Part shown: piece by piece, positions 32,043-33,711 of the stretch
How positions within the stretch are numbered: the stretch's first letter is position 1
Layout: every line of letters starts with the position of its first letter
Assembly (NCBI RefSeq): GCF_019029495.1
Contig: NZ_JAERQM010000011.1
Span: forward strand, 1 to 64,000
Source of the DNA: Falsiroseomonas oleicola
Lineage (GTDB): Bacteria; Pseudomonadota; Alphaproteobacteria; Acetobacterales; Acetobacteraceae
DNA: 64,000 nt
Reading direction: 5' to 3'
Notes under the pieces: model-generated
Database searches by the model: none
Told to the model about the DNA's origin: nothing
The model's input: only the letters and a program-made list of their open reading frames with translations
Translations under genes and position numbers: made by a program

Positions 32043-32972
32043 ATGCCCGACATTCTCTGCCTCGGCGAGCCCATGCTGGAATTCAACCAGCAGCCCGGCG
32101 GCCCCGATGGCCGCAGCCTGTACCTGGAGGGGCATGGTGGCGACACCTCCAACGCCGCGATCGCCGCCGCGCGCAGCGGCGCGGAGGTCGGCATGATCGC
32201 CCATATGGGGCAGGACCGGCCCGGCCAGAGCTTCGCCGAGCTCTGGGCGATGGAAGGCGTCGATACCGCCTGCGTGCAGACTGACCCGGAGGCGCCGACG
32301 GGCATCTATTTCGTCAGCCACGGGCCACAGGGCCACGACTTCACCTTCTACCGCAAGGGCAGCGCCGCCAGCCGCATGCGGGTGCGGGACGTGCCGGAGG
32401 AGGCGATCCGGCAGGCGCGGATCCTGCATCTGTCGGGCATCAGCCTCGGCATTTCCGAAAGCGCCTGCGACGCCGCCTTCCACGCCATCCAGGTGGCGCG
32501 GAAGGCGGGGGTCAGCGTGTCCTTCGACACCAATCTGCGCCTGCGCCTATGGCCGCTGCGCCGCGCCTCCGCCTGCATCCATACCGCGGTCGGCATGGCC
32601 GACATGGTCTTCCCCTCCTATGACGATGCGGTGCTGCTGACCGGGCTGAAGGATGCGGAGGCGATCGCGGATTTCTACCTGCGGCTCTGCCCGCTGGTGC
32701 TGCTGAAGCTGGGGGCGGAGGGGCTGCTGGTGGCGACGCGGGAAAGCCGGGCGCGCGTGCTGGGCTTTCCGGTCCGGGCGGTGGATGCGACCGGCGCGGG
32801 CGACACGCTGGCCGGCGCCTTCATGGCGCGGATCGTGGCCGGCGACGATGTGTGGGAAGCGGCCCGCTACGCCAATGCCGCCGCCGCCCTGTCCACCACC
32901 GGCTATGGCGCCGTCGCGCCGATCCCCACGGCGGCGGAGGTCCTGGCCTTCCTGGAGATGCAGCGGAACTGA
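32043..32972 (+). CDS. kdgK: PfkB-family sugar kinase, probable 2-dehydro-3-deoxygluconokinase
   Basis: 309 aa. PfkB signatures are present: GGDTSNAAIAAARSGAEVG near the N-terminus and DATGAGDTLAGAF at the C-terminus, the second with the anion-hole and catalytic base residues. The middle HLSGISLGIS and FDTNLRLRLW blocks match KDG kinases. It would phosphorylate 2-keto-3-deoxygluconate to KDPG, the Eda substrate encoded just upstream. The symbol rests on this pairing; another deoxy-sugar acid is possible. Confidence 0.85.
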   Translation: MPDILCLGEPMLEFNQQPGGPDGRSLYLEGHGGDTSNAAIAAARSGAEVGMIAHMGQDRPGQSFAELWAMEGVDTACVQTDPEAPTGIYFVSHGPQGHDFTFYRKGSAASRMRVRDVPEEAIRQARILHLSGISLGISESACDAAFHAIQVARKAGVSVSFDTNLRLRLWPLRRASACIHTAVGMADMVFPSYDDAVLLTGLKDAEAIADFYLRLCPLVLLKLGAEGLLVATRESRARVLGFPVRAVDATGAGDTLAGAFMARIVAGDDVWEAARYANAAAALSTTGYGAVAPIPTAAEVLAFLEMQRN

Positions 32973-32988
32973 GCCGGGCCTCGCGCTA

Positions 32989-33150
32989 GGGCCTGTGGAC
33001 AGTTGGGGCCGTGATGCGGCCGGCGAGGGGTTTTTCGTGCTGGGAAGGAAGCCAGCGGAGCCGATGGCTATCCATCGGCGAGCATGGCTGACGAACCCAG
33101 CGCGGAAAAGCACCGCCGGACGCGCCCGCAACCCAACTGTCCACAGGTCC
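32989..33150. mobile_element. 162-bp foldback MITE-like element with TA target duplication
   Basis: The ends are inverted repeats: GGGCCTGTGGACAGTTGGG reading in from 32989, and GGACCTGTGGACAGTTGGG reading in from 33150, with one mismatch in 19. A TA dinucleotide flanks each side (32987-32988 and 33151-33152). The inner sequence also folds back along its whole length, around a perfect GCCGATGG-CTAT-CCATCGGC hairpin at 33060-33079. No ORF lies inside. The structure fits a non-autonomous element moved by an IS630- or IS427-like transposase. The right end supplies the third base of the neighbouring GNAT stop codon. Confidence 0.85.
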
Positions 33151-33599
33151 TAAACCCCGATCATCGGCAGAACATGGGTGGCGGACTTCTCCCCCACCGC
33201 GCGCAGGAAGCCGCAGCGCTCATAGAAGGCGAAGGCAGAAACCGGCGCCCTGACGCGCAGCCGCGCATAGCAGAAGGCGCCGGCCTGGAGCGCGACCGCA
33301 TCCAGCAGCGCCCGACCGACTCCGCCCCTTCGCCCCGGGCGCAGCACATAGAGCCGGCGCACCCGTCCGACATGGTCCTGCGGCAGGTAGGGGTCCGCCG
33401 TCAGCCCGCAAATGCCGCGCAGCGCCGGACCCGCATAGGCGGCGAACAGCGCCTGGCCTGCGCCCTCGAAACGCAGCGCATCCTGCTGCCAGTCCTCCCG
33501 CAGCACTTCCAGCATACGCTGTCCGTCACCGAGGGCATCGGCCGCCAATTGTTCGAAATCATCGGGAAGGTGCGCGATTCGCTCGATGCGAATCGGCAC
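33150..33599 (-). CDS. GNAT-family N-acetyltransferase
   Basis: 149 aa from GTG 33599 (VPIRIERIAHLPDDF). A TTG at 33638 would add 13 residues but gives a less typical start. The acetyl-CoA loop is R-P-G-R-R-G-G-V-G-R-A-L-L-D (motif A), preceded by GRVRRLYV, and followed by the AFAFYERCGF motif B region. The acyl acceptor cannot be predicted. Its stop codon TAG consists of the TA target duplication plus the first base of the element at 32989-33150, so the insertion lies exactly at the gene end and may have replaced the original C-terminus. Confidence 0.82.
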   Translation of the reverse strand: MPIRIERIAHLPDDFEQLAADALGDGQRMLEVLREDWQQDALRFEGAGQALFAAYAGPALRGICGLTADPYLPQDHVGRVRRLYVLRPGRRGGVGRALLDAVALQAGAFCYARLRVRAPVSAFAFYERCGFLRAVGEKSATHVLPMIGV

Positions 33600-33711
33600 G
33601 CGTGTGGCGCCCCCAAGGGGTCGGAGTTGGCTGAGCAACGGGGAGGTCGCCTCCAGCGGGGTGCGCCCGCTTCATAGGCGGGCACCGCCCCAGGCGCCAG
33701 TCCCGTTGCCG

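Follow-up and report, generated by a model that had tools for sequence, protein, structure and literature searches.

The window, a stretch of 64,000 nucleotides from Falsiroseomonas oleicola (contig NZ_JAERQM010000011.1, positions 1–64,000), contains two convergent genes with a short foldback element placed between them. On the left, the gene of a PfkB-family sugar kinase (32043–32972, + strand), identified by its open reading frame, the codon model and profile matches, ends in TGA 14 bp ahead of the TA dinucleotide that flanks the element; on the right, the open reading frame of a GNAT acetyltransferase (33150–33638, − strand) starts at position 33599 according to codon usage, and its product matches Pfam GNAT domains (best E 1e-8). 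The element itself (32989–33150, + strand) is 162 bp long, which, as translation of its frames confirms, is too short for a transposase gene; its G+C content is 67%, in a host genome of 70% G+C. Neither promoter-like nor terminator-like sites were found in the region 32800–33300.

The terminal inverted repeats of the element, GGGCCTGTGGACAGTTGGG (32989–33007, + strand) and, inverted, GGACCTGTGGACAGTTGGG (33132–33150, − strand), are 19 bp long with one mismatch; if the TA on either side is counted in, the imperfect inversion comprises 39 nt at 77%. The TA target duplication, supported by the flanks of 26 copies, occupies positions 32987–32988 and 33151–33152, with the right copy doubling as the TA of the GNAT stop codon. 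A perfect hairpin with an 8-bp stem and a 4-nt loop, GCCGATGG-CTAT-CCATCGGC, lies in the center (33060–33079), and complementarity continues along the whole length. The predicted fold of the single-stranded DNA has an energy of −63.6 kcal/mol vs. −33.5 (sd 3.3) in 200 shuffled sequences, none of which folds as well (z −9.05), and for the − strand RNA z is −8.27. The element was also considered as an RNA gene and rejected, the only Rfam match, MIR1437, scoring 36.7 bits at a gathering score of 168 and corresponding to a generic long hairpin.

The earlier note, made from the sequence of the window, had described this 162-bp foldback with its 19-bp ends, central hairpin and bilateral TA as MITE-like and had suggested searching the genome and its relatives for the repeat. 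Both the structure and the identification as a non-autonomous MITE hold, as the repeat occurs many times rather than once, with terminal inverted repeats, TA flanks and insertion sequences (ISs) with related ends. Five further full copies with 92–96% identity are found in the same genome (5.6 Mb, 30 contigs), and thus the element is not a chance structure; in addition, a deletion copy is located at C26:96916–97004. Across the genus, the listing comprises 28 copies of full or nearly full length from seven out of 15 genomes, the genome of the window included. Among 34 matching rows, five belong to another repeat family, one is a deleted copy, and two are nearly full but have no locus, leaving 26 copies for the analysis; these were split by eye into three subfamilies, with the window element in the alpha subfamily. 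The insertion sites are unrelated: the proteins encoded next to the copies reveal one shared locus (L057/L066), the remaining matches being 24–48% identical. Many copies, unrelated sites and a duplicated target are what is expected from a MITE.

The flanks of the 26 copies are TA on both sides in 12 cases, TA on one side and CA (TG on the complementary strand) on the other in nine, and other combinations in five. In the nine mixed copies, the TA at the stop codon side is TA by definition, and the recurrence of the TA/CA change in unrelated copies looks too frequent for simple decay. In copy B, an extra inverted end-like piece (ggcctgtggacag) adjoins the element at L048:2166–2185, being perhaps a remnant of another copy.

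An alignment of 24 out of 26 copies (L057 and L081 were left out) supports a hairpin of 50 pairs, with 97.4% of the cells paired vs. at most 42.7% if the structure is slid, although this comparison favors the structure, which was itself deduced from these aligned copies, over its slid versions. Changes on both sides are observed in 15 of the 50 pairs, seven belonging to the end helix and eight to the interior; the stem pairs of the central hairpin (helix 6) also vary on both sides. Such changes, along with the level of pairing and the fact that the core of the element is common to a second family with other ends (see below), would be compatible with co-option, that is, with copies being kept since a hairpin after the stop codon shields the ends of mRNAs or keeps convergent transcripts apart. 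However, further pair types, 35 vs. 32.2 in shuffled alignments, are barely above expectation, with 19 out of 500 shuffles as high, and hairpins may be perfected by mutation without selection. The inner pairs suggest either that the hairpin matters or that it is perfected by mutation. Moreover, the region around the window element contains no terminator-like site, the 87 bases past the GNAT stop codon show no element end in the 12 relatives with a visible gene end, and an orientation bias toward the gene was rejected, as the copies, once oriented, count as right in eight cases, left in eight, both in three, and none in seven. Co-option of the hairpins therefore seems rather unlikely to us.

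The ends allow one to name a source family, which the earlier note had held to be impossible from the window. Scanning of the genome with the end motif yielded 13 places, of which 12 are ends of MITEs and one, on contig C8, is an IS end; a weak point is that the reversed control pattern likewise has one match in this genome. The C8 end, TAGGTTCTGTGGACACTT, adjoins a DDE_Tnp_1 transposase and belongs to an IS of 847 bp, whose left end coincides with that of the MITE at 13 out of 16 bases (three differences, counted by hand); apart from the MITEs themselves, no IS end closer than three mismatches was found in this genome. Two overlapping open reading frames of the C8 IS match DUF4096 (PF13340) and DDE_Tnp_1 (PF01609). 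The search for full-length ISs with related ends, also proposed earlier, further retrieved two ISs with GGGCCTGTnGACAtT ends, L096 (848 bp) and L121 (843 bp); of these GGGCCTGTnGACA-ended ISs, L121 is from a Rhizobiaceae record, and L096, from a genome of the family. The NCBIfam IS5 model NF033580 scores 153.6 bits for L096 and 110 bits for the C8 piece, exactly at the cut-off of 110. All three ISs have TA on both sides, and TAGG-type inverted ends are present at seven out of 22 transposase loci of the genus.

A DDE transposase, a length of about 830–865 bp, two overlapping open reading frames and a 2-bp direct repeat were thus observed, as in the IS427 group of the IS5 family, listed with lengths of 832–865 bp, two overlapping open reading frames in some members, and direct repeats of mostly 2 bp (PMC3281130). 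Given this fit of sizes, reading frames and ends to the group as listed there, the source of the ends of the window element is likely the IS427 group of the IS5 family, and a transposase of this group presumably moves the MITE. The window element resembles the group in its related ends and 2-bp TA flanks, while the IS relatives found here are 843–848 bp long, those tested having two overlapping reading frames as listed in PMC3281130, and the element is a 162-bp foldback with no room for a transposase gene.

The IS630 family, considered as another source, seems less likely, as the ISs tested with these ends (C8 and L096) are of the IS5 type; two DDE_3 (IS630-type) pieces are present at C2:5077–5492, and none of the 13 end matches is on C2. 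In the family-wide scan of 200 genomes, 12 match the end within three mismatches, and the reversed control matches once in each of seven; more than one match is observed only in G000, G007, G086, and G210, and single matches mean little. The C8 IS also contains, on the transposase strand near the overlap of its reading frames (the L053:438–444 region), seven A followed by G, which we take from the motif to be a likely frameshift site.

According to gene calls from a home-made codon-usage model trained on the window, in 19 out of 26 copies the TAG stop codon of a neighboring gene is composed of TA and the first G of the element, at both ends in three copies, giving 22 stop codons in total. Seven copies occupy a stop codon located 2–117 bp from the start of the next gene. 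When the empty sites are rebuilt, the corresponding codon is TAG in 16 cases, TAA in four, and TAC in two, the latter being L057, which has lost its left end so that no rebuilding is possible, and L061. L061 as a newly made stop codon was rejected, since the element-free genomes G006 and G009 carry TAG at that codon. Similarly, in a comparison of copy A with 13 orthologs, TAG is present at the same codon without the element in G007, G011, and G014 (91–92% identity, 339 residues, which is the length of the gene itself), and the other ten have TGA. Among the ISs of the group, three out of 12 examined are at stop codons (C8 was read from coordinates, and gene calls for L121 were empty).

The window element is one of these cases. 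As had been read from the sequence, the GNAT gene stops at a TAG (33150–33152, − strand) in which the right TA is followed by the terminal base of the element, and it had been suggested that the insertion may have created a new C-terminus. The use of an element base by the stop codon and the prevalence of other stop codons in the relatives might be regarded as indications that the protein was cut or extended: the GNAT gene has a match in 13 relatives (one genome lacks it), and out of 12 with a visible end, ten have TGA and two have TAG in other sequence. However, GCGC-TA-AACC, the reconstructed empty site of the window copy, is read on the − strand as GTT TAG, with TAG at the same codon, and the two closest orthologs, in G014 and G011, both with TGA, end 0 and 2 residues away from the end of the GNAT open reading frame. 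Taking into account the rebuilt TAG and the TAG that some element-free relatives carry at the corresponding codon of copies A and L061, the idea of a new C-terminus is unsupported and, in our opinion, extremely improbable. In the proposed comparison with relatives, the empty-site junction of the window copy was seen in none of the 12 with a visible GNAT end.

The alternative offered by the earlier note, a preferred harmless site, is supported by enrichment over the 26 copies. For the background, five genomes were sampled in 40 stretches of 20 kb each, all of these stretches being free of alpha-type ends; among 304 YTAR sites there, 53 are at stop codons, 73 are coding, and 178 are intergenic. 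Out of 26 alpha-type copies, 19 are at stop codons, four are within 30 bp of a gene 3′ end, three are at other intergenic positions, and none is coding (the near-3′-end class was defined as 36 bp for copies and 30 bp for the background, but all four cases are within 30 bp). The excess at stop codons, 19/26 copies vs. 53/231 non-coding YTAR sites, is significant (Fisher p 5.6e-7) and similar at stricter gene cut-offs; with flank G+C of at least 0.7 it is weaker but still present (15/20 vs. 29/87, p 9e-4). If sites at and near the 3′ end are contrasted with other non-coding sites, p is 2.6e-8, and for stop codons vs. near-3′-end sites (19:4 in copies, 53:21 in the background) it is 0.41. Hence, the copies are biased toward the 3′ ends of genes, and the stop codon is used because the target motif lies in it.

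We suggest that a transposase of the IS5 family, IS427 group, recognizing ends of the type GGnnCTGTgGACA, moves the MITE in trans and inserts it into YTAR, mostly CTAR, with duplication of TA. In a genome of 70% G+C, few YTAR sites would lie within genes, and comparatively many would coincide with the stop codons TAG and TAA. As G is the first base of the element at both ends, TA + G would rebuild TAG in either orientation, leaving the gene length unchanged. Insertions inside genes and near promoters would be removed by selection, and the survivors would be those that occupy a stop codon or lie no more than about 30 bp from a gene 3′ end; the GNAT gene of the window would have kept its TAG. 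We assign this whole account, with an IS427-moved MITE, the YTAR target, the restored stop codon and the loss of harmful insertions, a probability of about 0.83. The acting transposase and the role of selection rather than active targeting are what we infer from the data, and the 3′-end bias is explained most simply by selective loss of insertions in coding regions and promoters.

Several observations do not fit this account easily. TA is present on both sides in only 12 out of 26 copies, the ISs are at stop codons less often than the MITEs, and, as mentioned above, no empty site for the window copy was seen in the relatives and the closest IS ends in the genome are three mismatches away. YTAR combined with the lack of coding insertions predicts 23% of copies at stop codons vs. 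73% observed; either selection at promoters has to be added, as we do, or active targeting, in which the transposition machinery would prefer stop codons or 3′ ends beyond YTAR, for instance via the termination of transcription or a broader sequence environment. The excess over non-coding YTAR sites, retained at high flank G+C, is what such targeting would produce, and the seven copies at stop codons 2–117 bp from the start of the next gene agree with it, but the stop codon itself is not preferred among the sites at or near 3′ ends, and the bias is less pronounced in the ISs. We hold active targeting for a possible but doubtful explanation, on which a second family of elements also bears.

This family, delta, was found through partial matches to the window element. 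Its members are mostly 161–162 bp long, with GAGACCGTTTGAGAA ends and a flanking TNA, which is the same left and right in 28 out of 65 copies, and share with the window element a core at positions 33023–33111 (+ strand; 80%, E 3.9e-14). The delta query matches 13 out of 15 genomes, but some rows contain only the shared core, including two out of four in the genome of the window, in which two delta copies are located at C23:437040 and C29:6494. The core also recurs at the delta loci L059, L060, L068, L078, and L215–L284. A clean empty site is provided by G001, gggcTGA-element-TGAagcTCAGCGCC, vs. G006, gggcTGAgcgTCAGCGCC.

Out of 70 delta loci, five whose ends were not located and two having repeated flanks were excluded; the 63 used, diverged orthologs included, comprise 33 copies at stop codons, six close to a 3′ end, and 24 at other positions. 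The excess at stop codons is marked relative to all TNA sites (p 8e-6), as active targeting would have it, but disappears against the non-coding CTNAG background (104 stop, 18 near, 66 other; n = 188; p 0.77), this target having been read by eye from the outer C (46/65, left) and G (49/65, right) and being stop-enriched itself, so that the control is partly circular. The 27 copies with identical TNA flanks (19, 5, and 3, respectively) lean to 3′ ends even against CTNAG (p 0.014). The CTNAG target alone may suffice for the placement of delta at stop codons. Another observation consistent with active targeting comes from a single orthologous gene end (L200, L201, L205), where three genomes, G009, G007, and G001, carry different elements (beta, delta, and alpha) at the stop codon; in the other 12 of the 15 genomes, no element is seen in 67 bases past the stop. 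The beta and alpha copies at this gene end are 71% identical to each other and 93–98% identical to their own nearest kin, which speaks for separate insertions.

Both target motifs, TA for the IS427-type ends and TNA for the other ends, overlap stop codons and would deliver elements to 3′ ends. One may speculate that the hairpin core of about 89 bp is carried by two transposition systems as an exchangeable genus-wide 3′-end module kept because of a role at mRNA ends, which we find distinctly improbable; the occurrence of one core behind two sets of ends in any case bears on the origin of MITE families.

Coming back to transposition into YTAR with selection, its components have precedents. Bacterial MITEs such as RUP and Correia/NEMIS are described as being shorter than 200 bp, with terminal inverted repeats, TA ends, a hairpin and multiple copies (PMC2229807), and the window element shares all these features. 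It differs from them in being GC-rich (67%), most MITEs being described as A+T-rich in that paper, and in the measured association of its family with stop codons; the ends are of the IS5 type here and, from what is reported of RUP, of the IS630 type there. Restoration of the stop codon has been described for TnRErm46/ISRe46 of the IS481 family, which targets CTAG, TAG being the stop codon of some uninterrupted target genes and of its own transposase (PMC6794481). The similarity consists in stop-restoring insertion at CTAG, and the differences, in the IS family, the large size of the transposon and the hexanucleotide NCTAGN repeats; the account of these insertions in PMC6794481 is not known to include a comparison with a genomic background. 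Our literature search returned no title on MITEs of Roseomonas or Acetobacteraceae, nor on the statistics of MITEs at stop codons. Thus, stop-restoring CTAG elements and TA-ended MITEs are already known, and the stop codon statistics and the shared core are added here. The resulting rule for small mobile elements in compact GC-rich genomes is testable: a target motif coinciding with stop codons, combined with ends that begin with G, makes insertions at the final codon nearly harmless.

Elements of other sizes and groups were also encountered. Elements of about 265 bp with GGGCCTGTGGACA ends (L115, L118, L119) are present in records of Roseospira and other Rhodospirillales/Alphaproteobacteria, and their scanned ends form a stop codon in L115 and L118, but not in L119. 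In L144, L145, and L148, which belong to another IS5-type group with ends GGTCGCGTGGACAAA and alike, the flanking target TAG is the stop codon of the transposase-side open reading frame.
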